Assembly: GCA_905221605.1 (NCBI GenBank)
Contig: CAJNDS010000493.1
Coordinates: forward strand, 62,001 to 126,000
Direction: 5' to 3'
Length of the DNA stretch: 64,000 bases
DNA from: Symbiodinium natans
Lineage: Eukaryota; Sar; Dinophyceae; Suessiales; Symbiodiniaceae
The position numbers were made by a program, and so were the translations under genes. The stretch's first letter is position 1; each line of letters begins with the position of its first letter. The notes under the pieces were generated by a model that saw only the letters and a program-made list of their open reading frames with translations, was not told where the DNA came from and did no database searches. Positions 14,673 through 39,450 of this stretch are shown here, one piece after another.

Positions 14673-15310
14673 TTAAAAAAGGCTAAGTGTGCGAAGAAAC
14701 TTCGAAATGTACATATTCTGTTCTAGAACAATATCATGAGGTACTGCATCTTCGTCATGCTCACGCAAGCTGCGTAGAGATCTGAACTGCGCACGCCGAC
14801 GTCTTGGCGCCAGGCAGAAAGGTTGCAAGTAAGCACGGGCCCTCGCCTGCTTTAGGCCAGGCGCCGGCTTTTGTCCCCTCTATACTCCCCTTAGAACCTT
14901 AATAAAACTATAGTTTTAATATCCTCTTGGGTTATATATAAACAAAATCAAGAATAATTCCCAAGGGAGATATAGCCCTTGGGCCCTTCGGCACTATAGG
15001 GACCTCTTTGAATCTCGTAAGGTCTGGAATGCTGGAATACGGACGTGCTGATCCTTTTGGAGCGAAAATCCGAAACCTACACGCCCAAACTCCTTTGAAC
15101 CTACACCCCCAAACCCGAAACCCTGAACCCTAAACCTGAAACCCAAGCAACGCGCTGGTGCAGCCACCGGCAAGCCTCACAGTAGCGCTTCATGTGGGCC
15201 GCCAGGGGCAAGGGATACCCAAACTCCTTGCCTTGCGCGTGAGGTTGCAGTTCAGGGCCAGCTGCAGCTGTCCAGAAGGGCCCCAGAAATACGACCCTCG
15301 AACTTTCACG
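14673..15310 (-). CDS. Unknown gene, three exons, with an introner-type intron
   Basis: Three minus-strand exons join in frame. The first (about 15,310-15,152) reads VFLGPFWTAAAGPELQP, then GYPLPLAAHMKRYCEACRWL, and ends at a GT donor. The second (15,053-15,004) reads DQHVRIPAFQTLRDSKR. The third (14,877-14,673) reads GQKPAPGLKQARARAYLQPF, a basic RRRR stretch, then IVLEQNMYISKFLRTLSLF and a TAA stop. The second intron, 14,878-15,003 (126 bp, GT-AG with a following G), consists of a copy of the AT-rich repeat family also found at 37,604-37,721 and 39,248-39,350. No domain recognised; the 5' end is missing. A Cys-x2-Cys pair (CEAC) is present in exon one. Confidence 0.6.
14878..15003 (-). mobile_element. 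Introner-like element, family A, copy 1 (complete intron)
   Basis: The sequence carries the family core: near-terminal inverted CTCCCCTT / AAGGGAG, an AACCTTAATAAA block, TTTAATATCCTCT and TATATAAACAAAA. It fills the intron between two exons of the minus-strand gene, with GT donor and AG acceptor. Confidence 0.7.
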
Positions 15311-16169
15311 CCCTTGGAGCGAACACCCTCAACCCGAAACCCACTTGGTACACTTCCCTCAATTTGGTGCGGGGTTTAGGGGCCAGACCAGGCCCAGTGA
15401 AAGGCCTACTCACAAGGGCCCGAAAGAATCCCTTGAAGTCTTTTTCCGGTGCCTACTGCCCCAAATCCCTCAAAACCTTGCCTGCCCGGATCACGCCCCT
15501 GGCCTTGCAAGTTGGGGCGAGGCTGAGGGCTCAAGGTGAAAAAAGGCACCGCAGCTTCGGTACGAAAGTCGCCAAGTTTCAAGAGTGTAGGGGTTCAAGG
15601 TTCAGAGTGCAAAGGTTTGGGTTCCTGTTCAGGGTTCAGGGTTCAGGGTTCACAGTTTAGGGTTTGCAAGCACTCTCGGGTTTAGGATTTTGGGTTCAAG
15701 GTTCAAAGGTTCAAGGGTCAGGGTTCCAGGTTCAGGGATTCGGGCTCAAGGTTTAAAGCCTCCCAGGGGCTTCAAAATCAGGTAGGGCACTTGTACAGCA
15801 GGAGCTAAGATCAGGCAACTCCTTCTCCACAGAGCGACACGACGGCAAGAACATCAAAAGACATTCGAGAATCGAGAGGTGGGCGCTTTTCTCAAGGTGC
15901 AATCGTAGCTGGCTCCAAGCACTTCTCTGTGTAACCGTGTTTCGTTGATGCTAGGACTTGCGGATCACTGTCCGCGCACTGCAGTTGTGAGAATGAGCGG
16001 CGCCGAATTCGAAGCTGGCCCAAATGACCCTTTTTTGATGACCCTAAACCCTCTAAACCCTCTAAACCCTAAACCCTAAACCCTAAACCCTAAACCCTAA
16101 CCCCCCAAACCCTAAACCCTGAAGCCAGGCCAAAGGTTCAAGACCCAACCGGTTTCAGGGCCCTGGCCA
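15311..16169. other. No gene assigned
   Basis: Degenerate GGTTCAGGG/TTTAGGG sequence and a CCCTAAA run at 16,035-16,105. A segment near 15,835-15,930 reads like protein on both strands and I leave it uncalled. Confidence 0.5.
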
Positions 16170-16265
16170 TGACGCTTTTTCCATCTGCGTCCTGCGCCGG
16201 GGCTCCAGGGATGGGAAGTAGAGGATGTTCTTCTTTCTGGTTTTGCCACATGTCTGGCGGTCTTT
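16170..16265 (+). CDS. Candidate exon, unknown gene
   Basis: Reads RFFHLRPAPGLQGWEVEDVL then LSGFATCLAVFAR, ordinary protein composition, ending at a TTTAGGG run. May belong with the + strand candidates at 16,835-16,905 and 17,066-17,143. Confidence 0.25.
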
Positions 16266-16834
16266 GCTCGGGTTTAGGGTTTAGGATTTAGGGCTCAGGG
16301 GTTTAGGGGTTTATGGGTGTAGGGTTTTAGCGGTCTAGGGTTGAGGGCTCGAGGCTCAAGGAGAGTAGAGCGCTACACGTAGGGGCAGATGTTGCCCAAG
16401 GCCAGGGTTCGGGGCGACGGGGTCGAAGTTCGTAGTTCGGGATCTTAGAGCTCGCTTGGGATTCTTCAACCCTAAACGCAAAACCCTAAACCCTGGACGC
16501 TGGAGGGGGGTCTTCTGGGATGCGGGCACGGGGTCTTCTAGGATGTGGGCGCTCAAGGGATGCTCTGCCGGATTTCCGGTGCTTTAGCGTTTAGGGTTTA
16601 GGGTTTAGGGTTTAGCGTTTAGGGTTTAGGATTCAGGGTTCCGGGTTTTGGAGGTTTATGGCTGGTGTTCTAGGGACCCTGTCGGGGCACAAGGATAATT
16701 ACCATACTTATAGCTCTACTTAGAATACGGGCCCACACTTCGGATCCCATAAACAAGCGTAAGGGGGCCATACTAAGGCCCCAGAGTTCCAACCTTCGAC
16801 CTAAAGATATTTTGAATTCGATGACCCGGGCGAG

Positions 16835-16905
16835 ACGCGCAGGAGAAGTGGGCCAGGAGAAGGTAAAGGAACCCCTGCGCTTGCATCCGGTCTTGTGCCA
16901 GACCT
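16835..16905 (+). CDS. Candidate exon, unknown gene
   Basis: Reads ARAGEVGQEKVKEPLRLHPV in a segment bounded by hairpin-family and CCCTAAA sequence. Protein-like but short. Confidence 0.25.
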
Positions 16906-16911
16906 AAGCCC

Positions 16912-17055
16912 TGAACCCTAAACCCTAAACCCTAAGACCTAAACCCTAAACCCTAAACCCTAAACCCTAAACCCTAAAACCCTAAAACCCTAAAACCCTA
17001 AAACCCTAAAACCTTAAACCCTAAACCCCAAACCCTAAACCCTAAACCCATCCTA
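16912..17055. repeat. Telomere-like array (CCCTAAA)n with an 8-bp variant block
   Basis: CCCTAAA units interrupted by a block of CCCTAAAA units at about 16,976-17,012. Confidence 0.95.
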
Positions 17056-17065
17056 AACCCGAAGG

Positions 17066-17143
17066 CTCGAAGGCCTCCAAGGCTTGCCGGAAGGCGTTGG
17101 ACTCCGATGCCACGGCTCGGGACCTGCAGAAGGCGGGCTCTGG
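17066..17143 (+). CDS. Candidate exon ending at a GTAAGG donor that runs into a TTTAGGG array
   Basis: Reads EGSKASKACRKALDSDATAR then DLQKAGSGT. The donor GTAAGG is immediately followed by the (TTTAGGG)n array at 17,151-17,250, so the array would begin a few bases into the intron. Confidence 0.35.
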
Positions 17144-17150
17144 GACAGTA

Positions 17151-17250
17151 AGGGTTTAGGGTTTAGGGTTTAGGGTTTAGGGTTTAGGGTTTAGGGTTTA
17201 GGGTTTAGGGTTTAGGGTTTAGGGTTTAGGGTTTAGGGTGTAGGGTTTTC
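17151..17250. repeat. Telomere-like array (TTTAGGG)n
   Basis: About 13 near-perfect units, opposite in orientation to the array 100 bp upstream. Confidence 0.95.
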
Positions 17251-17437
17251 TTTGCCACCCGCCTAGCTGGCACTCAGGCCACGTTGCAGGGACTAGTTCC
17301 GGAAATACTGTGTTGTAGGAGAAAGATATGCTGTTAAAGCCAGCTTTGTAAAAAGACAAAGGGATCATACGGGGATCATTCTAGAAAGATAAGTACAAAC
17401 AGAATAGACAACAAAGGAACATAGCACATGGATCCCC

Positions 17438-18178
17438 TGCAGATCCCTTCCCAGAAAGAAATGCCCATCTGTTCCTCTCCAAGGCTCCGGGCTCCAATCA
17501 TTTTGTACATCCATCATTGACAGCGAAGCACCATAGTACAACCCCCAAGTTGATCAATACACTAGATGCACAAACGAAAAACCCCACGTTAGGTGTTCCA
17601 CTGCCCATTTCAACCCCGAGGCTCTGCTACTCTGACTCATGCCGCCTGGCCATTCAGGCTCTTGTACAGTGGCAGCCCACAAAGACAAGAAGCAGCAAAA
17701 ACCCCTTCTCAGGTCATAAGACCAAAAAAGACAGGCAGGTTCCCGGCGAGATGTGCTAGTCCCATCACAGTGGTCAAGCCCAGAGTATCTCCGAGCAACC
17801 AGGTCCCTGGAGAGATACCATGCCAGCAAGACCGCACCAACCCCAAAACACCACATAGATCCAAAAAATGTTAAGCACCACCACCAAGCAACCAAAAAAC
17901 TACATCGATCCAAACAATGGAAAGGTTGTGGCTGGCGTCTCATCCAGGGCCTCCTAGACGACTTGCACTTGCTCGACTTCTCCAGAAGGGGGATGTAGAA
18001 GCACTGAAAAATCAAAAACCTTGCTCATACAGTCTCAGTAAGGATAGACACGCAGATCCCCTCCCAGAAGGAAAGGTCCATGTGTCCTATCTCCAAAACT
18101 ACGGGCTCCAATCATTTTTGTACATTTGTCACGGACCAGCAAAACACCGCAATACAAAAACAAAGGCTGATCATCACA
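17438..18178. repeat. Pair of diverged direct repeats (17,438-17,561 and 18,050-18,178)
   Basis: Both copies share CAGATCCC(C/T)TCCCAGAA and CGGGCTCCAATCATTTT followed by GTACAT. They lie about 610 bp apart, on the 3' side of the protease ORF. I see no reverse transcriptase or primer-binding site between them, so LTR status is not supported. Confidence 0.55.
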
Positions 18179-20082
18179 TTTGAGGAGCTGGCAGTTGGAT
18201 TGGTGCTGCGACGCTTTGGCTTTGGCTTAGGCTTTGCTCTTGCCCCAGGCGCGAGAACAGTACGGGTAGGAGCTGGATTTGAAGCTGGCGCAGGAGTATC
18301 AACTCGCGCTCCAGCGGTGAGCGAGATGATGTTGCCATTCACAGCCACTACAGTACAGCTCCGGCTCGGCGACTCTCGTTGGTCGCTGCAATTGTTGCCC
18401 AACGAATTGCAGGCTCGATCGAAAACTCATCGCCGTGGTTGCCAGAGACATCGTTGTCGTAACCGTAATATTCCTCTTCTCTTGCTAAGCGTTCTGCTTC
18501 TTTCTCTTCTTGTCTACGGTAAAACTCCTGAATCTTTTCTTCTTCACTGTAGAATGGAAGTTGCTTCCTGATCTTGTACATCTCCCGATGTTCCATGATG
18601 TTAGCACTTCCGCGAGCGGCGTTCTTAGAAGCCTTTTGCTCGCCGGTTCTGAGTTGCTTCCTGCCGAGGCGGCCTCGTGTATGACGAGCGGTCCTACCGC
18701 CATCAATGTTGGCCTGCTTGTGTTGTCGCTTCGGCTTGGAGGCAGAATGCGTCTCATCTGTGTTCACTTCACAGTAGTACGATGGGAGTGGAACAAGATC
18801 TGAGTCTTCCAATTCCACGACAGAGTCGTCGATGAAGGAATGTTCACCGCAAAGCACGCGGATTCGGTCGAGGGCGCTGATCGTTGCAGCATAATTCTCC
18901 GGAAGATGCCGGATTTCGCCCAGAGCTTTAAACCTCCACGGTGAGGAACAAAGGTGTACCCCGGCAATGCGCCAACGCCCGTGCACCATGACGAGCAATG
19001 GACTTCCGGAATCCACTGCATTGAGTGGTTCTGCCATCGATCCGATGGTGCCTGTAGAGGATGTCCCGAAGATTTCCCCTTCTAGGACCTTGGGTGTGGA
19101 GAAGATGGTCGCCTTTCCCACTCCGCTAACCGTCAAAGTGGCCTGGCTGATGCTTTTGCAACCGAGAGCGCACCAATCAGGAGAGCTCAGGCGGAGCGCA
19201 CAAAGATCGTAGCCACTACAAGAGCGGAGGGGTTTGGTCCCATTCTGAGCGACCTTCTCGAATATTGCGGTGGAGAAGTCTATTTTGCGTCGGCGAGAGC
19301 CATCATAGGACGCTGCAAAGAAGCGTCCTGGTCTGACTGCAACTCCTTCGAGTGTTTGCACCAGGCCAATATGGAACGCTGTGTATGCGTAAAGTCCTTC
19401 CCTTACGGCAAAACCAACATGAGAGAAATCCCCATTGAATGGCCCCATTGTCCTCGAGAAGAATCCTGATGAGCCAATTAGGTACGACATCTATGGGCAC
19501 CACAAGTTCCCTTGCTGTGTCCAACACAGATTCGTCGAATGTCTCAGGCGGAGTTTGCCTCGAACTCGCAATGTTTGCCTGCTCTAGCGCCAAATTTTCT
19601 TCTGGTGCTCTTAGGGAAAGCGAGCGAGGACAGAGGCGAGGGCCTAAGACAACGTTAAATGCGTTGGACGTCGTTCCGCCGCCAACAAAGAGCACAGTGA
19701 TGGACGAGACCGCAAGTTCAATCACACACAATGAAGAAGGGGGTTTGAAGAATGCGCGAAGACCAATGTCTACCTCGTCATCTGGAACGACATACGTTCG
19801 TGCCAAATCAAAGGACGATGAGTCAGGACTGGACTCAGCCTTCAATCTAGCCGCAAAGCGGCTATTCCAGCTTGCATGGAAAGCCGGAAAACAAGGATGA
19901 AATTCACCGCAGCCAGCCAGTGCTTTCAATCGGGTGATCGGAAGGCTCCATCGAAAGACAGTGCCCAAAGCACGAGGACAGCACAAGACCGAAAGTCTCA
20001 CGCGCCGGTCAGCTTTTTCGGTTAAGGCGGTGTCTTGCACTGGCATGGCAGCTGCACCACCAACAGCCATAAAGACAGGCAT
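18110..20082 (-). pseudogene. Disrupted ORF with chymotrypsin-like serine protease; candidate endogenous sobemo/dinornavirus-like element
   Basis: Three overlapping minus-strand frames form one reading. 20,082 to about 19,490: about 195 residues with a hydrophobic stretch (LCVIELAVSSITVLFVGGG). Then 19,490-18,348 in another frame: 380 residues with a protease triad by position, H40 (AYTAFH), D95 (GYDLCAL) and S161 (VDSGSPL), followed by RWRIAGVHL. The protease is followed by a Lys/Arg-rich and then acidic tail. Then about 18,400-18,112 in the first frame again, with KPKPKPKRR. Membrane segment, protease and basic/acidic tail is the order seen in sobemovirus polyproteins and in the related dinoflagellate virus HcRNAV. 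No polymerase is present. A host trypsin-like protein is the alternative. The frame changes suggest a decayed copy or sequence errors. Confidence 0.5.
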
Positions 20083-20149
20083 GGCTTGTGAGTACGGTTA
20101 AAGAGCGATGTTCCTGTTTGAGGCGCGAACGCTAAGCCCTGAGATTGAT

Positions 20150-20290
20150 CAGGGTTTAGGGTTTAGGGTTTAGGGTTTAGGGTTCAGGGTTCAGGGTTCA
20201 GGGTTTAGGGTTTAGGGTTTAGGGTTTAGGGTTTAGGGTTTAGGGTTTAGGGTTTAGGGTTTAGGGTTTAGGGTTTAGGGTTCAGGATTT
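20150..20290. repeat. Telomere-like array (TTTAGGG)n
   Basis: About 19 units with TTCAGGG variants, just beyond the 5' end of the protease ORF and abutting a family C hairpin copy. Confidence 0.95.
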
Positions 20291-20292
20291 AC

Positions 20293-21340
20293 CTGGAGGT
20301 TCGTGAGTGGTGTCACAAGGACCCTCAGCGGGGTTATAAGTATAATTACCATACTTAAAACTCTACTTGTATCTACCCATGAAGCCCAAAGTAGGGGTTG
20401 TTTATGCCACCCGCCAAGCAGAACAGCCACACTTTGGGGTAAAAATTTCGGGTTTGGGGCTTAGGGCTGGGGGTTTGGGGGTTTAGGGTCCCGGCGGCAT
20501 CATGCGGACTTCAGGGCAACAGGGGGCTTAGGGTTGTAAGGGTTGTCGGGTTACAAGTTACAAGAATATGGGGTTATGGGGTTATGGGGTTAAGGGTTCA
20601 GGCTTTGGAGTTGGGTTTAAGATTTGAGAGGTCAAGGAGGTGCCCGGGGAAGCAGCTGCGTGTTGCATCACCCTCCCCGGGAATGCAAGCAGTGTTTCCA
20701 AGTTCAAATGCGAATAACAGCACAACAGGCTTTGATTTTCAAACGTAATTACGTAAGTCTTACCCTAAACCCTAAACCACTCCCAAACCCTAAAACCTAC
20801 TACGGTGAGCATACTTGTGAACTGGGCCTCGGTCAGCAAACCTGATTTAAATGCTGCAGTTGCGAGGTTCGCCATCGATGGCAACTTGATTCAGGTTTCG
20901 GAGTTCAGCTGTTTCTTGGAAATTGTCAGCACCTGCATCCTACAACCAAAAACCGTTCAATCGGCAAATGACGCTGTGGGCGCTGCCATTGCGCATGCCT
21001 TCGCTTGCCGGATTTGGCGAAAGCGACCTGGTTGGCTGCAGTCGGGGCTTGAGCACCTCTAGATCCGAGGGACCCGGGCTGAAACGCTGTAAAGCGCGTG
21101 TGCTCAAGGCAAGCTGCATGAACAATTTGGGAGGGGGAGGAGGGGGAGGGATGCTTCCCAACAAAGACCACGAAGCCCGAAACCTCCCCCCTCCCCTGAG
21201 TCCAGCCACGAACGCGGCGTCCAGCTCGTCCCAACTTATCCCATGCGAGTTGCCTGCGAGAAGAGGGGGGAAGGCGGATGAAGTTTGGCGAGCATCAGGG
21301 CTTCAGGGTTCTGGGTATTCTGCCCCTAAACCCTAAACCC
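20293..21340. other. No gene assigned; hairpin-family copy and mixed sequence
   Basis: Holds a family C hairpin copy (20,290-20,392), GGTTTAGGG-rich sequence and open frames on both strands at 20,805-21,336. The + frame reads SKPDLNAAVARFAIDGNL at about 20,845, possibly an exon. Confidence 0.4.
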
Positions 21341-21357
21341 TAACCCTAAACCCTCCA

Positions 21358-22500
21358 AAAAGGAAGGGCTCCAGATGGCTCCGAGAGGGCTCAGCTACGG
21401 GAGAAGAGAAATCGCAAGGACGGGCCCACGAAGCCCAATGCCCTTCAATTGATCAATTGAGGGTGTGTAGGGTGTAGGGTTTAGGGTTTAGGGTTTAGGG
21501 ATCTTAACTCATATTAATCCCCTCCCTTCTTTGAGGGTGTAGGGTTTAGGGTTTAGGGTTTAGGGATATTTATGTAAATTCAGGTGCATTCCTTAATTGA
21601 GCGGTATGGGGCTCTTTGGGGGGATGTGTCGGGCAAGTCTTACTTCTTTCTTACAGTTCACATTAGAGCTCCGGGGTTCTCAAACCTTTCGGGCTTGCAT
21701 TATAAACCCCATGACTTGAGAACCCGAACCCATAGCGCTCACCACCCAAGATCCCCAAACGCCTCCCCGAAAAGAGAAACCCTGCCTAAAATATAAATGC
21801 CCCAGACCTTAACCCCAAAATTTAAAGGCACCACACCCTGAACCCTGAACCCTAAAAATTGAAGGTCCTCAAAGCCCTGACGGCCCCGCCCCCAAACAAA
21901 ACATAAACTAAACCCTAAGCCCTAAACCCTAAAGCCTAACCCTGAACCCCCCCCCCCCCCCCCCAAAAAAAAAAAAAGACAGAAAACATGCACAAAGGGT
22001 AGAGGCTCAGGTTCGGGCTCATCTTCCAGAGGGCTTCGAGCCTTACCCGGCAAGGCGAGCCCATACAGCAACCCTTAGGGTTTCGGGTTTATAGGGTTTA
22101 GGGTTTAGGGTTTATAGGATTTCGGGTTCAAGGTTTAGGGTGTAAGGTTTAGGGTTTATAGGGTATAGGGTATAGGGTATAGGGTTTAGGGTTTAGGGTT
22201 TAGGGTTTAGGGTTCCCCCGGGTTGGGGAAACGAGAGAAGCTACCTGGAGCAGAGGGAGTTCGGGGACGGCAAGGCATCAACCCTGAAGACCCTCGATAG
22301 GAGGTTCAGGATCTCCTTAGTGCCTAAACCCAAGCTTTAGGAGGGTTTCGGGTTAAAAACCCTAAACCCTAAACCCTCATTCAACCCTCGTGGCAATGAG
22401 TGGGCTTGCGGCTTTCGGTGCTTTGACAGACGAGCTCACCGCCTCTGGCGGTTCTCGTTCAGCTGCCGCTCGTCCCTGTCCGGATCACCTCAGGGTGTCA
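21358..22500. other. Array-rich interval with several candidate exons, strand unresolved
   Basis: Three islands look coding. 22,231-22,318 reads SYLEQREFGDGKASTLKTLD on + and EILNLLSRVFRVDALPSPNS on -, the latter between AAG|G and AG|GTAGC splice signals. 22,425-22,476 reads DERQLNENRQRR on - between CAG|G and GTGAGC. 21,358-21,445 reads GSERAQLREKRNRKDG on +. The splice signals favour the minus strand for the first two. Arrays at 21,478-21,565 and 22,085-22,215 separate the islands. Confidence 0.35.
22085..22215. repeat. Degenerate telomere-like array (TTTAGGG and TATAGGG units)
   Basis: Mixed TTTAGGG, TATAGGG and TTTATAGGG units. Confidence 0.9.
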
Positions 22501-22521
22501 GGTTCGAGGTTCGGGGGACTC

Positions 22522-22580
22522 CTAAACCCTAAACCCTAAACCCTAAACCCTAAACCCTAAACCCTAAACCCTAAACCCTG
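22522..22580. repeat. Telomere-like array (CCCTAAA)n
   Basis: Eight units, ending at CTGCAG, which would act as a + strand splice acceptor for the candidate exon that follows. Confidence 0.95.
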
Positions 22581-22642
22581 CAGGAACGTGAAAGCCACAT
22601 TCAAGGCATCGGGTCGCCAGAAACTCAAAGAAGAAAGTGCTA

Positions 22643-22744
22643 CTTGGGATGTTTCCCCTTATGCCAACAGTCCTTAATGGGGATTGTAATCGGGGTCCTA
22701 GAATCCCTGTTAAGGACAGTTAGTATCAGGGGGAGCATCCCAAG
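22643..22744. mobile_element. Hairpin element, family B, copy 1 (candidate introner)
   Basis: Begins CTTGGGATGTTTCCCC and ends GGGGGAGCATCCCAAG. Inner arms CAGTCCTTAATGGGGATT and AATCCCTGTTAAGGAC are also inverted, so nearly the whole 102 bp can fold back. On + it sits between coding-like segments (KASGRQKLKEES before, and LSLWDWHPKPSNACSEAG after if a GC donor is used), consistent with a GC-AG intron. Confidence 0.65.
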
Positions 22745-22949
22745 CAGCGCCTTTTGTCACTCTGGGACTGGCACCCCAAACCCTCAAACGCCTGTTCTGA
22801 GGCTGGAGACCCAAACCTATTTGCTTATACTAAGAACCCCCCCAAAAAAAAAGCACAAATGTTCTTTCTGAATAAGGGTACAAAAGGGATTATAATCTTC
22901 TATTTTCTTGGAAGTTTTTAAGCAAGCAGTAAAACCTCTCAAGACCGAA

Positions 22950-23035
22950 AACCCCACGAAGCTACCGCGGTCCCGGCTGGATTGTTCCTCGCCGATCGAA
23001 TCCCTCGGCGTCGGATCAGCAGCTCTTCTTGCTTT
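22950..23035 (-). CDS. Candidate exon, unknown gene
   Basis: The minus strand reads KQEELLIRRRGIRSARNNPA then GTA, ending at a GCG|GTAGC donor-like site. Basic and ordinary in composition. Confidence 0.3.
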
Positions 23036-24432
23036 AGGGTTTACGGTTTAAGGGTCAAAGGGTCAAGGGTCAAGGGTCAAGGGTTTAGGGTTTAGGGCTT
23101 AGGGTGTTCTCTCAGGTTTAGGGGTCTTTTGGGCGCAGGGCTTTGTGGACCCGACCTTTTCGGCTGCAAATGCTGTGTAGGGCCACTGTGTAATGGGGGG
23201 TGATTGAAAGTTCGTGGGATCCGCAGGGGTGCTCTGATGGCACAGCTTACCGGAAAAAACTTGGGCGAAAGTTCGGCTTTTAACTATGGCTAAGGCATTC
23301 GGCCTTGTCCTTGTCTCCTGTATATAAAAACTACACCACCGAAGACCCCAAACAGTCAGAGGCACGTCAAAGAAACGGTGGAGACAACGGGAGACAAAGG
23401 GAGACGAAGGGAGACAAAGGGAAACGAGGAGCACAGCAACCCGGCAAAGCCAAAGGGAGACAAGAAGCCCAGGAACCCGGCAAAAGTCCTCAGAATGTCG
23501 GAAATCATTAAATGAATTTAGAACCCCAACAGTAGACTGTTTGGGGGAAAACAATCAACGACATGTCTGGGAGGCCTTGATCCTAAACCCCAACATCGTA
23601 AAAACCCGTGCAACCTCAAACCCTAAACCCTTTTACATCCAGGCCTCTGAAGTCTGCCGGGTAAGTATGCCCTAAACCCTAAACCTAAACCCTGAACCCT
23701 AAACCCTAAAACCTAAAACCACTCTCAAAGCCACCCTCTTGGCCTTGTCCTACACAAAGACCTTACGAGGTCCCCACCCCCGAGGCCGCACGAAGGGACG
23801 GGACCGATGGTCGTGCAAGGCCGGATGTGGCCATAGAACCTTAGGGGTACAGGTGGCTTTAGGCTTCAGGCTTTAGGGGTTTAGGGGCTTGGGGTTTAGG
23901 GTTTAGGGTTTAGGGTTTAGGGTTTAGAGTCATCCCCAAGCCATTCAGCTGCCATACAGCTGGTGTTCAGAACCCTCAAACACGAAAGCTGGAAAACCCA
24001 GAGCTTAACAAATAGGAACAAGACTGAGTTTGTCAGCCCCCAAAAAGTGTACGCTTTCAGTTTTATAGGGGGTTATACTGTCCCAAAAGTGTAAAGTGTG
24101 CTCGCTCAGCTACTAACCCTAAACCCTAAACCCTACTGCCCCCCTTTCCCCTCAATGCCTCCCATTCCGAGAATCTCCTCCCATCGTTTCACCCCTAAAC
24201 CCTAAACCCTAAACCCTAAACCCTAAACCCTAAACCCTAAAGAAGGCCAACCGAAACCACAAGCAGCAAAGAAAAAGGCAACTGAGAAGAGGGCATTGGG
24301 CTCAGGCCTTGGTCCCAAGGGCAAAAAGATTTGCCCACAGCTGACCCGAATTTGAGGGTTTAGGGTTTAGGGTTTAGGGTTTAGGGTTTAAGAGATTAAG
24401 GGTTTAAGGGTTCCAGGGTTTACGGAAGCTGC
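23036..24432. other. Telomere-like arrays and weak coding-like islands
   Basis: Arrays at 23,665-23,715, 23,880-23,935, 24,112-24,135, 24,192-24,240 and 24,355-24,395. A purine-rich GGGAGACAAA repeat lies at about 23,385-23,435. A Lys-rich + frame at 24,241-24,355 (KKKATEKRALGSGLGPKGKK) may be an exon. I assign no gene. Confidence 0.4.
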
Positions 24433-24541
24433 CTCAATCGCGGTCTTCTTGGTTTTTTTCGGTTCAGGGATCAGGCAGGCGTTTGCCACCTGCTTCCTCG
24501 TCTTGTGAAAGGTTTCGAATCTTGGCAGCCGGCCGTGTCTC
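24433..24541 (-). CDS. Candidate exon, unknown gene
   Basis: The minus strand reads RHGRLPRFETFHKTRKQVAN then ACLIPEPKKTKKTAIEAA, convincingly protein-like and Lys-rich, and bounded on both sides by telomere-like arrays. The next minus-strand candidate upstream is 24,602-24,690. Confidence 0.4.
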
Positions 24542-24790: not shown

Positions 24791-24860
24791 TTAGGGAGGG
24801 CTTTGTTGGGCCCAAGGCTTGTGCTGCCCTAGCCACAAACTCTAAGCACGCAAGGCCTTA

Positions 24861-24983
24861 CTTGGGATGTTCCCCCTTATACTAGCAGTCCTTGAAAGGG
24901 ATTTTCGTACCCTAAACCCTAAACCCTGAACCCTAAACCCTAAACCCTAAACCCTAAACCCCAAGAAGGGGGAACATCCCAAG
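24861..24983. mobile_element. Hairpin element, family B, copy 2, loop replaced by a telomere-like array, with 6-bp target duplication
   Basis: Ends CTTGGGATGTTCCCCC and GGGGGAACATCCCAAG. The right inner arm is missing and a (CCCTAAA)n run occupies 24,908-24,960. GCCTTA flanks both sides directly. If the left GCCTTA supplies a GC donor and the element end supplies CCCAAG|G, splicing would remove the element and one target copy exactly. Confidence 0.7.
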
Positions 24984-29368: not shown

Positions 29369-32300
29369 TCAGCCAGTTCTCAGGCGCTTGCCGGGCACGG
29401 ACTCTGAGTCCTCCAGTTCAGACATTGCACTGAGCAATGCGTCGCTGGTCGCCACAGCCCCAAAGACGCCATGCTGCATCTTTACTTGCTTTAGGGCGGA
29501 GAAATGGGTGTCGCTTGCCGTGGTCCCAGTGCAGTCTGACAGCAGCAGACACTCAAAGCCACGATCATTCGCTTGGCGCAGGGTGGTGTGGACACAGATG
29601 TCGGTCGGCACACCCATAACCACAAGGTGCGTAACGCCCATAGCGTGAAGGCTCAGCTCCAAGGAGGTCAGATGGAAAGCTCCATGTCCACACCTGGGTT
29701 GCTGTTAAGGCTGCTAAGGAACTTAAACTGAGTCACCACAGTAAGGAGACATACCGAGCATTTTACTGCAGGGTCCTCAGCTGACGGTAACTTAAGCTGA
29801 AAACTTCTCCACAGCAATCCAGACACTTCTCGACCACGGGCTCGTCCGGGAGCGGCGAGAGCTGCGAAAGGAACTCCCAGCCCTTCTCCTGAGCGACTTT
29901 CTAGGGGTTATACTTTGGACCCTTAAGTCTTGGGACCCTTTTTGCAGATCCCTAGGGGATATATAAGGGCCATAGTTGGAGTACATTAAGGGGAACCTTT
30001 GGGGTACAACCTGAGGGGTAGTAGTCTTCATTCCCTGAGACTTGGCACGGCTTCGAAGACTCAACGGAGACGTATGGAAAAGTAGAAGGCTGGGACCCTA
30101 AACCCTAAACCCTTGTGAGACTTGAGAAGAAGGCTTAGCAAACAATCTTACACACATCGCAATGCCCCAAACGAAGGCCAAGTTGCCTTGACAGAGTGGG
30201 TGCAGAACACATCCGCTGGAAGAAAACGCAGATGTTCTTCCCCCGAACCCTTTTTGGTCTTAAACCCTAAAGGGTTTAGGGTTTAGGGTTTCGGGTAAGT
30301 AAGCCCTAGTGCCCGAGGGTTTGCAAGCAGCCAGTGAAACCCCAACTCTACCTACCTAAACATCTTATCCTGAAGCCTGAAGCCATCAACTCCTTAGCAC
30401 CGGGCCAGGAACCTCAAGATTTTTATTTTCGTGTTTTTGAACCCAGGCCCTCAATCCTAATCCATACTTGGAGGTTCAGGGCACGTGTTAGCCCAATACT
30501 AGCTGTACTCATCACCCAATTCTAACCATCTAAACCCACAACCCCCTAAACCCTAAACCCTTTACCCTAAACCCTAAACCCTAGACCCTAAACCCTAAAC
30601 CCTAAACCCTTTTTTCTGCCAAACCCCCACAGTTCGAGCCAGGAGTCGCCCCGGACGAGGCACCGGCCCAAGGGGCCATCCGCCCCGGCCGGAAAGCGCC
30701 GCCCGCGCTGCGGGCAGTCCGCGAGATTCCTTGAAGCGAAGTTTAGGGCTTAGGGCTTAGGGTTTAGGGTTTAGGGCTTAGGGTTTAGGGTTTAGGGTTG
30801 AAGGTTTAGGGTTTAGCCGTGAAGCAAAGTCTCGGGTTTGGGGTTGAAGGTTGCTGGCACCCGCTGGACGAACCACACCGCTCAGGGATTGCAAACCCCA
30901 TGAACCCCCCCTGAACCCTGAACCCTAAACCCTAAACCTTAAACCCTTAACCCTACCATGCACCCCACAAACCCTGCAAAAACCCGGAAGCCTCAAGTTC
31001 CACCCAGGTGGCGGTGCGAAACCCGTCCTCACGTGGACAACGCGAAAGCCTGTGGCGCGCATGCGCTGCAGCACCTTTCCAGACTTCTCCTTGGTGCTTG
31101 TCTGGCCTTCCATACTCCCCCCTATAATAAACACCAGAAAGTTGGAACATCAGTATCCTCATACCCTTTAAGGTGACAAGTGAAGTAGAGGGAAACCCAG
31201 CAATAATCATCCTACACCCATGTTCCAACTTTCTGGAGTCCACTATAGAACACCCAATGCAACCTGCGGCTTGCATGGGCAAAAGAAAAACGCAGAAGAT
31301 TCTGGTTGCTGACGCTGTACAGGAAGAATGTCTTTACGTGACTGTTCTGCTACTGCGGCCAGGCGCCAAGAACAACTCAACAACCCACTATAAGACAATG
31401 TGAGGGTTTGGGGCCGACAAGGTTTGCTCAAGATCACCCACGTCACAACCACCGCAGCAGAGGAGTCGATCGCATGGCCAGCTTTGGGCAGGCCTCCCTC
31501 TGGTTCCAAAAAGTCCTGCTGCTATCAAGGTGTGTCGTCTGTTTGTGGGCATGTGCAGGAATACATCGTATTCCTCGTTACAGTACCCTTGTAAACCTCC
31601 TGACGACAATCCCCATATACCTCCCGCATACATCCTTCTGGAAGTTGATGGCTACAAGCGCTGTCTTCTCCGGGCGCATGCCACCGTCGAATGGCCATGC
31701 ATATGGATCGGCGGCAACGGCTCCCTTTGCCGCAGCCACCTTCGGCGACACGAAGGTATCCGAAATGGACTTGGGCATCCAAAGGCCAGTCGGAGGTCTC
31801 GGCATGCGCACCTTGATGCCGCTGCCGACTTCGAACTCCTCAATGTTTGCCTCCAGTGATGTGGGGCAATCGACGCCCATGGCGCGCAGCAGGTCCGCAG
31901 TCGAAGCTACGCAACCGAAAGCACCCCCATAAGCCTGCGTGGTCTTCAGCGTCGCCAGATAGTTGCCATAATCCGTTGCAGCCGTGCAGTCCGAGAGCAG
32001 CAGGCAATCGTATCCCAGGTCGTTTGCTTCACGCATGGTGGTGCTCACACAGACGTCAGTGGTGATGCCGGTTAGGACCAGCTTCTTGATTTTCCTCCCA
32101 CTGGTTTGAAGCAAGAACTGCTACTACAAGCAGTCAGTGGTCTACGCAGGGTGCATTAGCTATACTACCCTTAGAACCTAGATCCTAAACCCTAAACCCT
32201 AAGCCCTAAACCCTAAACCCTTCTCTAACTTTCGTAAGCCGAAGTGCTTCTTCCGGAGCATCAGATGCAGGTCGGTCGCCACGAAGGAGCCCTTGCCGGG

Positions 32301-34860
32301 CTTGTCCAGGACCTCCTCGCCCTCTGCAGGCTGGAGCTCCTGTATTTAAAGGGTTTAGGGTTGAGGGTTGAGGGTTTGAGGGTTTGAGGGTTTGAGGGTT
32401 TGAGGGCTTAGGGTTTAGGGTGTAGGGTTTAGGGTTTAGGGTTTAGGGCTTGGGGTTTAGGGCTTAGGGTTTAGGGTTTAGGGTGTAGGGTGTAGGGTTT
32501 AGGGTTTAGGGTTTGGGGTTTAGGGTTTAGGGTTTAGGGTGTAGGGTTTAGGGTTTAGGATTTAGGGTTTAGGGTTTGGGGTTTGGGGTTTGGGGTTTGG
32601 GGTTTAGGGTATAGGGCTTAGCACCCCGCAGAGTTTTCCTGGGGCTTCTTGCCTTGATAGTGTTGAAATGAGGATACCGCAATGGTCTTAAGTGAACCGA
32701 ACCCCGAAGAGAGAGCGTAGCACGCGTAACAAGGAAGGGAACTCCACATGCGTCATCGCCCCCCTTCAAGTAGATGCAGCCGAGTTACTCAAAGTAAACC
32801 CTAAACCCTAAACCCTAATCCCTAAACCCTAAACCCTAAGCCCAAAAACTCCTATGTTTAGCCAAAGGAGGGGCCGAGTGTGACCCTGTAAAAGTTAGAT
32901 CGTCAACCACACACACATCCCAAAAGGAGAGCGCCGCCCCAGAACCTGGTACTATCAGAACTACTAGACAAAGGGGGAAAAACATGCTTCCCTTTCCCCC
33001 AAAACCGTAAACTATTCGATAAACCCTGAACCCCAAACCCTAAACCCTAAACCCTATACCCCCAAAGCACCTCGATGAGGTTCCAGCCGGGCTCGCCGCG
33101 CACCAGGACGCGGCCGCAGGGCCCCGGATCGCCAATCCCCGCTCCGATCTGCCTGCGGTTTTAATGGTTTACGGCTCTTGTGTTTTAGGGCTTCGTATGG
33201 TTTAGGGTTTTCTTGTGTGGCTTAGGGCTTTTATGCTTCAGGGATTTACGTTTTAGGGTTTTGTGGTTGGTTTCTGGTTTAGGGTTTAGGGTTGTCCGGC
33301 TTCGGGTGCTTTTCGCTCCTGCGCCGCCGGTTTGGGCTTTTGCCATCCGCAGGGTTCTTGTTCAAGCCACCCCCCTCGGTGACCCCCTTGGGACTACTCC
33401 GCAGGGAACAGCCGTGGATCTCGTACAGTGCTGGCTTTGAAACACAGACGAGCCGTTCAGACCTCAACACAACCTTTTACTACAAAAGTAATCGACGACG
33501 AGATGGAGGGGATCATTCGCAGTATCAGGTTCCGGACGTGCCTCAACCCCTGTCACGTCGCGTGCTTCGGGCTAGACGTGTGGGGATGTTAGGCCACCGA
33601 AAAGTTGCATCCCTTTAATGCTTGAAAAACGTTTCGGGCTTTACGAGGATGTATACGGTCAAAGAACACCACAGCAAATCACAAGTCACAATGTGCACCA
33701 TTTAGGTTCCCAAGCCGCTAACAAGTACACACGTTAAGTATACTATACAATGAACTATTGTGGGTTTAGGGTCTAGGGTTTAGAGTCTAAAGACCATACT
33801 CGAAAATGCCATAACGCGCGAGCTACCATCGGATATATTTTTAAGATCACAGAGGTTTTGAAACAATGGGGATCGAGTACTTAGGCCTTAGCCCTTTGTT
33901 TAAACCCTAAACCCTCAACTTTAGAGTGTTGGGTTTTCAGGTACCCCTAAAACCCTTTTTGAATTGGGGGTCCAGCGCCGTGCAGCTTTGGATCTCGCAT
34001 GACCTCGTATGTATTCTAGCATGGTCAAGCAGATGGCAGCAGATTATGGTGTGTGATGCTAGTACTTGGAGGTTCATGGGTAGTTATAAGTCGGGTTACA
34101 AGTACCCTAGATGGGGTTATAAGTTCAGTTACAGTACCATATCGTGTCTTAGTATATTGTCTTGCGAAAGCACGTTATCCTTTGCTATTGCATAGCATTG
34201 TCTGATGCTCGGCTTTATCGTAGATGATATACATATGTTGCCGTCTATCTCTTTTTGGCCTCTTGGGAGAACTTCGGAGCCTATACACCGCCTCTGACTT
34301 GAGGGTTTAGGCTTTATCATTTAAGGGCCAGGCCGGCCTGGAACGCCAGCGCTTGTTGTCAGGGCAGTCGGAAAGGGAAGGCTTGTGGCCCTCGCGCGTG
34401 TGGATGATGTGGAAGCCTTTGTCCCGGAACGCCTTGAAGAGCACCTTCAGGGGCTCGATCGGAGCCCGCGTCATCGAGATGTCGTAGCCCATGCTGTCGA
34501 CATAACCCCCTTTGCCGCAGAAGTCGATTTGCATGTCCTTGGCGCCAGGCGGTTGGGGGCTGAAGGGCTTGTACCTCAACCCCAAACACGAAATGCCTAT
34601 CAAACAAACCCCAAAACAAAACCTCAAACATCTTCAAAGGTGTAGCTTCCGAAATTTGGGTCCCTTCACAAGGGATCCCTTTAAAAGGGACCCTAACTTA
34701 GAGAACTGCCCCCAAAAACCTCCCAAGACCCTGAGGGCAACCCTAAACCCTAAACCCTAAACCCTGAGGGCAGCCCGGCATCGATGGCCAGCAGCGCCGT
34801 CTCCGCGGGCTCCAAGCGGCCATCGGAAGGCCAAGCCAGAGCACCCCTCGCCCGCGCCAT
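29369..34860 (-). CDS. Tandem-domain cysteine hydrolase (isochorismatase / ureidoacrylate amidohydrolase-like), nine exons
   Basis: I assembled this gene by reading the minus strand against the cysteine-hydrolase fold. Exons: 34860-34783, 34537-34338, 33152-33071, 32339-32248, 32094-31621, 31114-31013, 30729-30648, 29888-29827, 29693-29369. They total 1,497 nt, stay in frame and end at TGA, giving 498 residues if the ATG at 34860 is the start. Domain 1 shows [13 protein letters not shown] (D27), DKPGKGSF (K133) and [12 protein letters not shown] (C166), the family's Asp-Lys-Cys triad. Domain 2 repeats the fold ([32 protein letters not shown]) but has Asn where the catalytic Asp is expected. 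Family members hydrolyse amides such as isochorismate, nicotinamide or ureidoacrylate; the substrate here is unknown. Donors are GA, GC, GT, GC, GT, GC, GA, GT in order; all acceptors are AG, seven of eight followed by G. A further 5' exon is possible. Confidence 0.85.
30540..30612. repeat. Intronic telomere-like array (CCCTAAA)n
   Basis: About nine units with single-base variants, close to the exon at 30,648-30,729. Confidence 0.95.
30745..30830. repeat. Intronic telomere-like array (TTTAGGG/CTTAGGG)n
   Basis: About ten units starting 15 bp from the exon at 30,648-30,729, opposite in orientation to the array on the other side of that exon. Confidence 0.95.
31134..31236. mobile_element. Hairpin element, family D, copy 1
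   Basis: Ends CCAGAAAGTTGGAACAT and ATGTTCCAACTTTCTGG form a perfect 17-bp inverted repeat 103 bp end to end. It lies inside the fifth intron of the cysteine hydrolase gene. A related copy is at 61,395-61,475. Confidence 0.75.
32348..32620. repeat. Long intronic telomere-like array (TTTAGGG)n with variants
   Basis: About 38 units including TTTGAGGG, TGTAGGG, TTTGGGG and CTTAGGG variants. The longest array in the window. It starts 9 bp from the exon at 32,248-32,339. Confidence 0.95.
32797..32842. repeat. Intronic telomere-like array (CCCTAAA)n
   Basis: Six units with one CCCTAAT variant. Confidence 0.9.
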
Positions 34861-35320
34861 GGCCGGGACGTTTGTGGGGGCCGCCTTCTGCACACTTGGG
34901 TCTAGGGCTTTTCTTTCCCCTGCAGCTGTTTAGGGTTTAGGCCCTTTAGGGTTCATAAGGCTTCGGATGGATTAGGGTTTGGAAATGGTTTTGGGGTTCA
35001 AAGGGGCCCAGGGTTTACAAAAGAAAGAGGCTTTGGATTCAGGTTGCAAGGGCATTCCATCTGCAGCTGTCAAGGCTCCAATAGTGCCTTGCACATGTGT
35101 GTGTGTGCATGCCATGGGTTTGGAGATACTTTCTGGCATAGGTCCGCCATGCCCCGAGACGCAAAGGTGTTGAAACGAGGCGGAGGAGAAGCAGGCCGCG
35201 CCCCAAATCCAAAACCCCAAAGAAACAAATATGAATCCGACCCCCCCCCCCGCCCTTCTAATCCTAGAGACTGAGCCTACACCCTAAACCCTAAACCCTA
35301 AAGCCGATAAACCCTAAACC
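34861..35320. other. No gene assigned
   Basis: Upstream of the cysteine hydrolase ATG. The frame is open back to about 34,890 ([12 protein letters not shown]), so an additional 5' exon or an upstream AG for trans-splicing may lie here. CCCTAAA units at 35,279-35,331. Confidence 0.5.
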
Positions 35321-35324
35321 CTAA

Positions 35325-35425
35325 ACCCAAAGTTCGAGGCGCGGGCGTTGCGCCAGGTGGCGGGCGCTAGGTCGGCGCTCTTATGCAAGTGGCGCCCAAA
35401 GAGCCCTGCACTCGACTGGGGAGGT
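35325..35425 (+). CDS. Candidate exon, unknown gene
   Basis: The + strand reads KFEARALRQVAGARSALLCK then WRPKSPALDWG, ending at a GGTAAAG donor-like site and preceded by a CCCTAAA run. Protein-like and basic. Confidence 0.35.
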
Positions 35426-37133
35426 AAAGTAAGGGTTTGGGATTTAAGGTTAGGGTTTCGGGTTTCGGGTTCAGGGTTTGGGGCTTAGGGTTTAGGATTT
35501 AGGGTTCCAGAGGTTTGAGGGGTTCAGGGCTTAGGACGGCCCTCAGCCTACAGGAATATGCTCGTATTTCGACCCCAAAAGTGCCAGGAAGTTAGATCCC
35601 GTCCTGGTCTGTCCTCCTGTCGTTGCTTTTCACCCTGGACTTTGTTTTGGCTACTGCGTCTGATGGCTGCATGTTCTGCACTATGTCCCTCTTGACCTGC
35701 CTCCTCTGACGTCATGTCTTCTTGTCGGCTAGCGTCATGTTCCCACATGCTCTTCAAGTCTCCTGTTCTTGCTTTTCCCACTCTTGTACACTTGCATCTT
35801 CAACTCCTGTGCTCCCATAGGGTTGAAAAAAGTACCTTGCTGCATTCTTACGACTTCCGCCCACCGGAAGCCTGCCTCCGCGTGGCAGCTGCTCCTCATT
35901 CTCTACGGCCTCCCGCACTTTCGGGGTTCAGGGTGTTGGAAGAAAGCGTGCTTCCAGGAACCTGACGAAAGGTTGCGGGGAGGACGAACAATGCCAGTCC
36001 CGGTTCAACCCCCTCAACCAAGCTTGCATGCACCCACCTGCTCTTCGCCGGAGTCCTGCGCGCCCTGAGGAGGGTTTTCTTGGGCAGGCGTGCGCATGTC
36101 ACCACACTCACGCGAACGGTTCACGCATTTCACACGGACCACTGCAACAGAACGGGGAACGTCATAAGCAATGGTGCCGGTAGCTTTATGATTGGCGAAT
36201 CCTGTTATGATACAGCCCTATCAGATCGAGGACCTAGAGCGACCAAAGTTGGAACACAGGCGGGGCTTCTGCCACGCTTGCCTCCTCACTGTCGGTGGCG
36301 GGGTCCTGCGCTGCTCTGCTGCGCTTTGAGGGTGTAAGGGCTGGAGCTTACAGCGCTCGATGAGGTCTCATGTTCGGCACATCGCCGCACCAACAGTCCC
36401 TGCCAGTTCCGGCTTTTCGTCTTTTGATGGGTCGCGAGCCTTGCCATCGTCAGAATCGCCAGCGCTGCCCTGGCCAACAAGTGCTGCTGCGAGGCTTGGC
36501 TCTCAGTTCTCAGTCGGCACATCGTGGAAAAGCAAGCTTCTGCGCAGGTCCCTAGAGAAACTGGGGGTGAGGGGGGGGGCGAAGGCCAATATGGCCCAAG
36601 ATTGTATAGGACTGAGGGGCTCTGCTGCCAACATACACTGCTGTTTCTCCCGCACGCGCTTTGAGTGGTAAGCGAGGTCGCAAGAAGCAGGAACTATAGG
36701 GTCTGTAGCACACTGCACGCAAACCACATTGGCCTGCACCGGTCAATGCAATGTTTTGCTTTGACCGGTGCACTCCTATACACATGTCTGGCGATCTGTG
36801 TGATGCTATAGCAGCTGCTGCTCTGGTTCGGAGCATTCAAAATGGGCTGTCTTGAAACATTTCCTGTGCTCAGGAACTCGCACCTCTGTAGCAGCAAGGA
36901 CCACTTGCCCTGAACACGGGCATTTCCACGAGCTGAGCCACCAAGCAGGTATCTGAATTTCATGCCACCCCTTTGACATTTAGGATCTGCGATGCTTTAG
37001 CCGGAGGGCTCGCAATCGTCTACCATTCCGAATTTCAACCAAGCATGTACTTCTGAATCCGCAGTGCCGTTTTGCCAAGTTAGGGCCGCACCAAAACTTG
37101 CACACTCCGTCCTCATAGCAGCAGCGCGCCAGC
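35426..37133. other. No gene assigned; one perfect 12-bp palindrome
   Basis: Degenerate GGGTTT sequence to 35,540, then about 1.5 kb of ordinary sequence with scattered short frames. The + frame at 36,360-36,590 (Ser/Pro-rich) is the most protein-like. TGCACCGGTCAA and TTGACCGGTGCA at 36,738-36,772 form a perfect inverted repeat with an 11-bp loop. Confidence 0.45.
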
Positions 37134-38713
37134 CTGGAAGCTGTAGCTAAAGCAACTGAAGCCAGGAATGCTCGCCGTAGCACGGATTGGCCGTAACCAA
37201 ATTTCACATCGGCCAAGGCTGAACTCAATACCCTGACACAGTGGCGCAGCCGCGCATCTCGCCTTGCAATCTTGCAGGGGCCTTGTCTTCCCCAGCGTGT
37301 AGTAGCTGTCCATGTTGTCGGTGGGCGAGTCCCCACGGCAAGCACGGCCAGCGCCTCAACGTCAAGTTGCCATGGGTTCTTATACAAAGAAATAACATGT
37401 GTGCACACATCTGTGTGTATATGAACATGTTTATCTACATGTGTGTCTAAGTATGTATGTATGTATCGGAGTCGAGGCAACGCGCTGCTAAAATGACCCG
37501 AGCACCACCACCCATGGCCACGAGGTGCCTCGTTGCCCATCCATAGCGCATGCACGAGAATCCGTCGATCTGCTTTGTGGCAAAGATGCCCTCGGGCCTT
37601 GTCCTTGACTCCCCCTTCGAAACCTTAATAAGAATACTATTTTTTTAATACATCCTCTTTTGGGTTTTATGTAAACAAAAAAACAAAAAACGATTCCCAA
37701 GGGGGATAGGGATATAGTGTCCAGATCTCACATCGGCCGAAGCTGTACTCAATGCCTTTGCAGGAGGCATCTTGAACGCACAGCGCCTTGCAATCTTCAA
37801 TGCTGGTAATTCGCTGCGGCACTACCTGGACTCAAACCAGCTTCCGTGTCACTACAGTAGCTCATGACAATGAACATCTCAGGGGTTTTTTCTAAACCTT
37901 GGTAAAACAGGTCATCATCGAGAAACTTGTTCGGCAATTCATCAAGGCAGCCGAGTAGTGGCTCGGCGAGCTATCATTGGTGCTGTTTCCACGGCATGCG
38001 CTGTCAGACGTTCCCACCATTTCCCACTCCTTCATTGCGGCAGCTTGGGTCGTGGAGGGTGTCGAGGTGGTTGCTTCGGTGGTCTGAGCATCGGTCGTGG
38101 AGCTTGTGGCCGACGCCGTCGGACTCGGCTCAGATCGCACACACGTCTGGCACGCGACGCCATCCTTGGGGACGACATGAACCCTAAAGGACTTATGGCC
38201 TCAGATACCTGAAAAGGAATTCTCGTGGTCTTGGGTATATGACCCCAAATTTAGGGCTCTTTTGGTCCCCGAGGCCCCACCATCCTGGCAGTAGCTTGCG
38301 TGACTGTCACGGACAGCCACAGCGCAGCTGTGGAGTCCGCATCGCGATGGCAGCGATCCAAGGGTTCCGAAAGTACGAAGCCGGAAGGGCAGGTCAAGCT
38401 GGAGCGGCAGCACTCTTTTGAGTAGGAGGCAGGGCAGCTTTCTCCAGACAAACATGTCATCTCACCCACAGTTGGGCTTTCAGTGCTGGGAGGTGGCTCC
38501 GACGCCACGCACTTGCAGCTGTTGTACCTGAAGGCTCCCCATTCCCACGGCCAGTCCTTGCACTGTTGATTCCATTCGACGGCGACGAAAACGCTTCCCA
38601 AATCTACGCACGCGGCTCCTTCCTTGGCATCACAGCTGATCTCCTTGCCACATTCCAAGGAGCCACCATGCCGGCACCTCAAGTAGTAAAGCGTCGTAGT
38701 GTACCCGGGGCAT
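37134..38713 (-). CDS. Secreted-type Cys-rich protein with PAN/apple-like repeats, at least five exons
   Basis: Minus-strand exons. About 38,713-38,270: Cys-rich (CPGYTTTLYYLRCRHGGSLE, NQQCKDWPWEWG, CCRSSLTCPSGF), exact end uncertain. 38,164-37,949: CQTCVRSEP, a Ser/Thr linker, then SDSACRGNSTND. 37,825-37,722: ITSIEDCKALCVQDASCKGI, then GRCEIW. 37,603 to about 37,530: TRPEGIFATKQIDGFSCMRY. 37,354-37,134: ACRGDSPTDNMDSYY, LQDCKARCAAAPLCQGIEFS, GRCEIWLRP, IPGFSCFSY. The unit C-(K)-C-C-GIE-GRCEIW-RP-GF-C-Y occurs twice, as in PAN/apple-type extracellular domains. Donors include GC (37,948) and GA (37,721). The 5' end was not found; a frame near 38,770-38,830 has a signal-peptide-like VCFLLALAEA. 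Function is probably adhesive or binding. Confidence 0.6.
37604..37721 (-). mobile_element. Introner-like element, family A, copy 2 (complete 118-bp intron)
   Basis: The intron between the two halves of the first PAN-like unit consists of a family A copy: CCCCCTTGGGAAT near one end, GTTTACATAAAACCC, ATTAAGGTTTCGAAGGGGGAG at the other. It starts GACA and the next exon also starts GACA, so a 4-bp direct repeat brackets it and supplies the GA donor. Joining restores Trp-Thr-Arg-Pro in frame. Confidence 0.75.
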
Positions 38714-38941
38714 ACTGCAAGCGGTGCTCGTCCGTCACCACGGGCATGCTTCGAAAGGTTTCAGCCTCTGCCAGGGCGAGGAGGAAACACACAGGATCGG
38801 CACCATGATGCCCGGTTTTTTTGGCACCCGGCTAGCCACAGCACTGCGGGGATTCATGGTCGGTCTCGGAAAAAAGAGTAATCACGCCGGGGTTCAGGTT
38901 CGGGATGCCCAAACCGCCCGGGTTAGGGTTTAGGTTTTTTT

Positions 38942-39022
38942 TTTTTAGGGTTTAGGGTTTAGGGTTTAGGGTTTAGGGTTTAGGGTTTAGGGTTTAGGGT
39001 TTAGGGTTTAGGGTTTAGGGTT
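38942..39022. repeat. Telomere-like array (TTTAGGG)n
   Basis: About eleven perfect units upstream of the PAN-like gene. Confidence 0.95.
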
Positions 39023-39134
39023 CAACTGCTTGGGGCAACAGTGGCCAGCTGCGTTTGCTCGGCGTTCAGGCGTGTTCAGATGTGTTCAGGGATTGTTTGG
39101 GGCCCTCTACCTGAATACCAGGTTATGAATACCT

Positions 39135-39450
39135 TATGACACCGCATGTATGCAGCAATGTATGGGGGTTTCCGACATTAAGGGTGCCTTGTTGGGGTCC
39201 TTGTGATTTTTTGGATCGATATTGGGGGTCCCCTGTGGTCCCCTATTCTAGACTCCCCGTAGAACCTTAATAAAGATGATATCTTTAATATCCTCTCGGG
39301 TTTTATATAAACAAAAAAACAGTAATTCCCAAGGGGGATGTAATATTTTCGTAAACCCCATAAAGCAGCATCTGCATCTTGTGCGGGGGTGATACCTCGT
39401 CGTCACTGGCAGCTGGCGACTGCGCGGCCTGATGCTCACACGAGAATCAG
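39135..39450 (-). CDS. Unknown gene, terminal two exons split by an introner-like intron
   Basis: The exon at about 39,444-39,351 reads EHQAAQSPAASDDEVSPPHK then MQMLLYGVY and ends at a GA donor. The second starts at 39,247 and reads NRGPQGTPNIDPKNHKDPNK then APLMSETPIHCC before a TAA at about 39,136. The intron 39,248-39,350 (103 bp) is a family A repeat. Phase is 0 on both sides. The second exon is low in complexity and its reality is less certain. No domain recognised. Confidence 0.4.
39248..39350 (-). mobile_element. Introner-like element, family A, copy 3
   Basis: Shares AACCTTAATAAA, TTTAATATCCTCTCGGG, TTTTATATAAACAAAA and CCCAAGGGGGAT with the copies at 14,878-15,003 and 37,604-37,721. 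GA donor and AG acceptor at the ends. Confidence 0.65.

Follow-up and report, generated by a model that had tools for sequence, protein, structure and literature searches.

Repeats and genes of the window

The window, the 64-kb stretch of Symbiodinium natans DNA analysed here, carries three related copies of an AT-rich repeat on its minus strand, designated A, B and C, each flanked by a perfect 4-bp target-site duplication (TSD). Copy A is an element of 96 bp at 14,880–14,975, set between two copies of CCCT at 14,876–14,879 and 14,976–14,979. Copy B, of 114 bp, lies at 37,604–37,717 within a gene carrying two PAN domains and is bordered by TGTC, which reads GACA on the minus strand. Copy C, again of 96 bp, occupies 39,248–39,343, with TATT at 39,244–39,247 and 39,344–39,347. 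These perfect direct repeats were used to place the ends of the elements; the chance of a 4-bp border match is 0.006 per copy with fixed ends, and 0.05 if 1 nt of slack is allowed. A profile built from the three copies matches each of them at E 7e-34 to 2e-32 and recovers no further clear copy in the window, the next match having an E value of 0.8. Identity between copies, from pairwise comparison and a four-copy alignment, is 84–85% for A and C, 73–76% for A and B, and 71–73% for B and C, and inverted CTCCCC/GGGGGAG motifs are present near their termini. Copy B folds better than its shuffled versions (z -2.85), in contrast to A and C (z -0.67, with ends off by one base). Because only B behaves in this manner, RNA structure is not relied upon as a general feature, and a hairpin common to the family was dropped from consideration.

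Several other features surround these copies. The exons of two tandem isochorismatase-family paralogues (Pfam PF00857) lie on the minus strand at 31,920–32,105 and 29,447–29,689, and a 993-amino-acid open frame at 8,917–11,898, also on the minus strand, encodes a reverse transcriptase domain (PF00078). Coding-like DNA with a 9-nt-periodic repeat and long open frames on both strands is found at 7,702–8,528, and a tandem array with a unit of about 50 bp, whose copies are approximately 80–86% alike, at 57,595–58,090. Rfam and tRNA scans of the window yielded nothing, and a search for the DinoSL relict, using a 15-base part and allowing up to two mismatches, found no match.

Two further repeats are widespread, as judged from the window and from a 205,557-base sample of the same genome (stretches L001–L027, of which about 61 kb come from the window's own contig and two contain N). 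Telomere-type TTTAGGG/CCCTAAA arrays occur throughout the window and L009–L027; heptamers were counted in 18 ten-kb stretches, each of which contains between 7 and 214. One such array lies a short way upstream of one of the isochorismatase exons. A palindromic repeat (TTGGGATGTTCCCCCTTATACTAACAGTCCTTAAT...) forms a second MITE family, which outnumbers the family of A, B and C in the sample. Its copies lie in the window at 22,639–22,752, 56,638–56,752, 24,854–24,983 and 57,319–57,404, the third of which contains a TTTAGGG array, and in sample stretches L002, L006, L009, L012, L014, L017, L020, L021 and L024.

Copy B in a gene with two PAN domains

On the minus strand, copy B is preceded by an exon at 37,722–37,813, which encodes the first half of PAN domain 1 as RITSIEDCKALCVQDASCKGIEYSFGRCEI plus two nucleotides of a Trp codon. 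It is followed by an exon at 37,512–37,603, which continues with the second half of the domain as (W)TRPEGIFATKQIDGFSCMRYGW... The outer ends of both exons, 5′ of the former and 3′ of the latter, are each one of several fits. Specifically, the upstream exon reads ...CEI(W) and ends in TG, after which come GACA, the element with its terminal CAAG, and then GACAAGG. TSD ends and register together indicate that the upstream copy of GACA (37,718–37,721) would supply a GA donor, and that the downstream copy (37,600–37,603) would form the first bases of the next exon. Excision of GACA and the element, a 118-nt putative intron of the GA..AG type, yields ...GRCEIWTRPEGIF... and rejoins a conserved Trp codon of the PAN domain that the insert divides. 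TSD and element account for every base of the candidate intron, leaving no intron sequence over. Among all sequence-neutral registers, B is the sole window copy that provides G[TCA]..AG. The insert length is 1 modulo 3, so that retention of the insert shifts the reading frame and brings in stops.

Homologous proteins align through this junction. A first search with a 69-residue query produced no match; a longer query, comprising the spliced PAN domain and its neighbour, then returned 26 proteins, whose three named sources are all dinoflagellates (Symbiodinium natans, S. microadriaticum and Durusdinium trenchii). In this protein-level comparison, all 26 align across the junction and retain the Trp that the insert divides. 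A small gap lies within five residues of that Trp in five of the homologues, and none falls at the join itself. The S. natans protein among them (P0006) is 51% like the query and would therefore be a paralogue.

The same gene also provides an empty site. PAN domain 2, in an exon at 37,143–37,354 (match 37,277–37,143) identified by tblastn and the gene model, is 57% identical to domain 1 (E 2.8e-15) and has no insert at the corresponding place. A Cys-rich exon farther upstream, with approximate ends at 38,254 and 38,724 on the minus strand, probably belongs to the same gene, as suggested by its open frame and by a resemblance, judged by eye, to the N-terminal part of homologues P0007 and P0018. 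In our gene model, further plausible G[TCA]..AG introns allow the exons around B to be joined with no stop arising, and at least two introns are present besides B. Every available test shows copy B in the layout of an intron, and its removal by the spliceosome is predicted. Exact removal of any insertion flanked by a TSD restores the frame, and so the coding continuity at B demonstrates an insertion in a coding exon, which is distinct from proof of splicing.

Copies A and C differ in these respects. Neither has a sequence-neutral register that gives GT, GC or GA with AG, and the peptides previously proposed to flank them have no homologue at E≤1e-3 among 33 candidates. A Pfam scan of the three minus-strand frames of 12.0–27.0 kb, which cover A, found no domain. 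This silence is weak evidence because a scan of the same kind over 26.7–41.7 kb reported only the two isochorismatase exons and missed the PAN exons. A TTTAGGG-type repeat lies close to A, and another about 0.2–0.3 kb downstream of C on the minus strand. Copy C is about 0.5 kb upstream of the exon that resembles, by eye, the N-terminal part of B's homologues, and is 1.5 kb from B in what is apparently one locus. A and C look like transposon insertions into non-coding DNA.

These results redraw a proposal made in an earlier note on this DNA, which described the three copies as complete introns. The three-copy family, its positions and the near-terminal inverted motifs are borne out by the profile search and alignments, as is the idea that GACA opens both intron B and the next exon through a target duplication that would supply the donor. 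Measured against the element plus its upstream TSD, the interval given for B was exact. The one for A overran by 24 bases on the donor side and by 2 on the opposite side, and the one for C by 3 on the donor side, having been stretched to reach a GT and a GA, respectively; TSD ends and register led us to reject these borders. An exact fit between protein-like segments, claimed for each copy, therefore stands for B and fails for A and C, where the register and homologous flanks are missing. Similarly, the placement of the copies in three unrelated genes is incorrect, since C lies near B's own gene.

Copies elsewhere in the genome

Exact matches to the element core occur at 305 places in the 759,417,921-base assembly (2543 contigs), the three in the window included, and a reversed-pattern control gave none. 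A first look with BLAST returned 2282 candidates, and all 40 of those scored, copy C among them, match at E≤5.6e-23. Many similar copies are thus present at unrelated places in the genome. Viral and GTDB contigs scanned for the core, and phage records searched with copy C, contained no match. From the 305 places we took the first 100 listed and fetched 97, the other three being A, B and C; a sample chosen by exact pattern favours well-kept copies. Flanking repeats agree at all four positions in 62 of the 97 and at three of four in another 21. When right flanks were swapped in 200 shuffles, perfect agreement was seen in a mean of 5.8 copies and at most 12. A 4-bp TSD also flanks the one clear copy found in the 205,557-base sample. 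The consensus of the 62 copies is 98 bp long, with terminal inverted repeats (TIRs) CTATATCCCCCTT...AAGGGGAGTATAG; the copies agree with it at a mean identity of 0.905. A fixed 4-bp TSD, seen in 62 of 97 fetched copies and in all three of the window, together with TIRs, are the marks of a TIR transposon or MITE. At one place (L048), a copy lies beside the apparent end of another copy of the same family, perhaps as a nested insertion.

Counts of splice registers and open frames were made on the 62 copies with perfect TSDs, leaving out the remaining 35 (one of which has no callable ends). The element ends in AG in 55 of the 62 copies in sense and in 54 in antisense, and a sequence-neutral G[TCA]..AG register is available in 21 and 11, respectively. 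The sense registers comprise 8 with GT, 7 with GC and 6 with GA donors. The TSD begins with G[TCA] in 19 of the 62 copies, compared with an assumed frequency of 0.19, or about one random TSD in five, as estimated from base frequencies (p 0.019).

After removal of the element and one TSD, the joined sense frame with 120 nt of flank on each side is open in 13 of 21 copies that have a splice register, versus 11 of 41 that do not (one-sided Fisher p 0.008). The antisense equivalent is 3 of 11 versus 9 of 51 (p 0.36). Overall, sense frames are open in 24 of 62 copies (null 15.2, maximum 21) and antisense frames in 12 (null 14.3). With shorter flanks there is no clear sense excess over the null (47 versus 46.3 at 45 nt, 41 versus 40.7 at 60 nt, and 30 versus 27.5 at 90 nt). 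The observed counts skip copies with too little flank and the shuffles keep them, which slightly biases the comparison against finding an excess. An open frame says little by itself, and such frames in part reflect G+C content: among the 21 sense-register copies, 9 also have an open frame in antisense, compared with 3 of the other 41. The flanks of the 13 copies that have both register and open frame are 60% G+C and contain no TTTAGGG heptamers, whereas the flanks of the other 49 are 53% G+C and contain 56.

Some joined peptides encode recognisable domains. Ten of the 13, picked by eye, were given to Pfam. An ankyrin match (1.4e-12) spans the join at L093, where the register is GC..AG and lies three bases into the TSD. 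Matches below the Pfam cut-off also span joins, specifically those to NCD3G at L067 (1.1e-6), a Na/Ca exchanger (Na_Ca_ex) at L091 (E 0.0032), a GH5 cellulase at L029 (E 0.0034), and peptidyl-tRNA hydrolase at L103 (E 0.019). One further peptide has a weaker match (0.061), and Pfam reported nothing for the other four of the ten. Searches of solved structures with three joined peptides found none below E 0.02, the best being a weak match to peptidyl-tRNA hydrolase at E 0.04. Precise coincidence with an intron layout in coding sequence is therefore seen at B and, on weaker evidence, at several of the 13 other copies, and is absent from A and C. From these patterns, a minority of the family's insertions appear to give rise to introns.

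Origin and meaning of the candidate introns

Taken as a whole, the sequences make it very probable that the family is a high-copy, non-autonomous TIR transposon (MITE) of about 98 bp with a 4-bp TSD, which would serve as an introner upon insertion into an exon, provided that its orientation and register are suitable. Copy B would be such an intron in the two-PAN-domain gene, with A and C as non-coding insertions. Mobilised by a presumed transposase, the element would enter an exon in the sense orientation and in a suitable register, duplicating its 4-bp target. The acceptor AG would be carried by the element's own end, and the donor would come from the upstream copy of the duplicated target, provided that this copy starts with GT, GC or GA. 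Spliceosomal removal of TSD plus element would then restore the former coding sequence exactly, and the donor rule would select which exonic insertions survive.

An ordinary, gene-damaging MITE is one competitor. By this account, the insertion of B left the PAN gene a pseudogene, and no splicing occurs. It accords with the 49 of 62 perfect-TSD copies that, along with A and C, fall outside the register-plus-open-frame class, and with the triviality of frame restoration noted above. Nevertheless, we judge it unlikely: the exons modelled around B join through plausible introns without a stop, just one of the three window copies lies in a recognised coding exon and that same copy alone has a GA..AG register, and across the 62 copies splice-permitting registers go with open frames in sense (p 0.008) but not in antisense (p 0.36). 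A different possibility is that the MITE inserted into a pre-existing, old intron, such that no intron was gained. The modelled gene does have at least two other introns, yet intron B leaves no residual intron sequence around TSD and element, and the paralogous PAN domain has no intron at this place, which renders such an origin very improbable.

The reading in which A, B and C each form a whole intron, in genes unrelated to one another, requires donors outside the TSD, GT for A and GA for C. The element end does offer an AG, GT and GA dinucleotides occur nearby, and introners that alter mRNA length are described elsewhere (PMC9860276). Against it stand the flanking peptides of A and C, neither pair of which has a homologue, the lack of a Pfam domain around A (with the weakness of that scan already noted), the TTTAGGG-type repeats near A and downstream of C, and the proximity of C to B's gene. 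We hold this version to be very unlikely. The earlier note's central proposal, a mobile family that makes introns with a TSD-supplied donor, is supported by the layout of copy B and of copies elsewhere in the genome, and lacks support for A and C. Its view that the gain is recent has moderate support, in that the 62 other copies are 90.5% identical to the consensus, whereas the window copies are 73–84% alike. The copies elsewhere, with a precise sense register in 21 of the 62 examined and an open frame in 13 of those, lend the introner reading further support.

The preferred reading, a MITE acting as an introner, has parallels in published systems. Introner family 1 of Symbiodinium microadriaticum (Gozashti et al., 2022; PMC9860276) likewise combines a 4-bp TSD, TIRs, its own 3′ splice site and a 5′ splice site from the TSD. 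An example of it spans 115 bp, similar in size to the present elements, and the likeness is one of described layout. Amoebophrya introner elements (Farhat et al., 2021; PMC7789003) share inverted repeats near both ends and direct repeats of 3–5 nt that overlap the borders, but their borders are highly varied, whereas the registers counted here are GT, GC or GA with AG. MITEs in general are similarly short and abundant, with TIRs and a TSD of fixed length; the difference is that a subset of the present copies is laid out as exact introns. Transposon-derived intron families are also described in dinoflagellates by Roy et al. (2023), as relayed in PMC11453091 and PMC10666404. According to the summary in PMC11453091, four of the five species covered show recent activity of these families, and that review attributes 12,253 recent introner introns to Polarella glacialis. 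GA donors are part of dinoflagellate splicing (PMC11453091, PMC10666404). The portions of the introner literature on dinoflagellates and Symbiodiniaceae consulted contain no matching family sequence, and Gozashti et al. (2022) and Roy et al. (2023) may already include it in their introner catalogues. The kind of intron origin is known; as far as seen, the family is new.

We tentatively suggest, with somewhat less than even confidence, that introner status arises mainly from the host's donor rule. A spliceosome accepting GT, GC and GA would allow nearly every target duplication that opens with G to act as a splice site and would thereby filter random MITE insertions, the element itself needing no particular adaptation other than a terminal AG. 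If true, intron-making copies would be split among the three donor types by target frequencies, and introns would arise in such a host from any TIR element with a terminal AG.

The origin of new introns is a long-standing question. Here, a single genome holds the same element in many copies, both as an apparent intron and as a plain non-coding insert, and the effects of orientation, register and donor type on its tolerability as an intron are therefore measurable. The duplicated PAN domain, with and without the insert in one gene, supplies a built-in before-and-after comparison.
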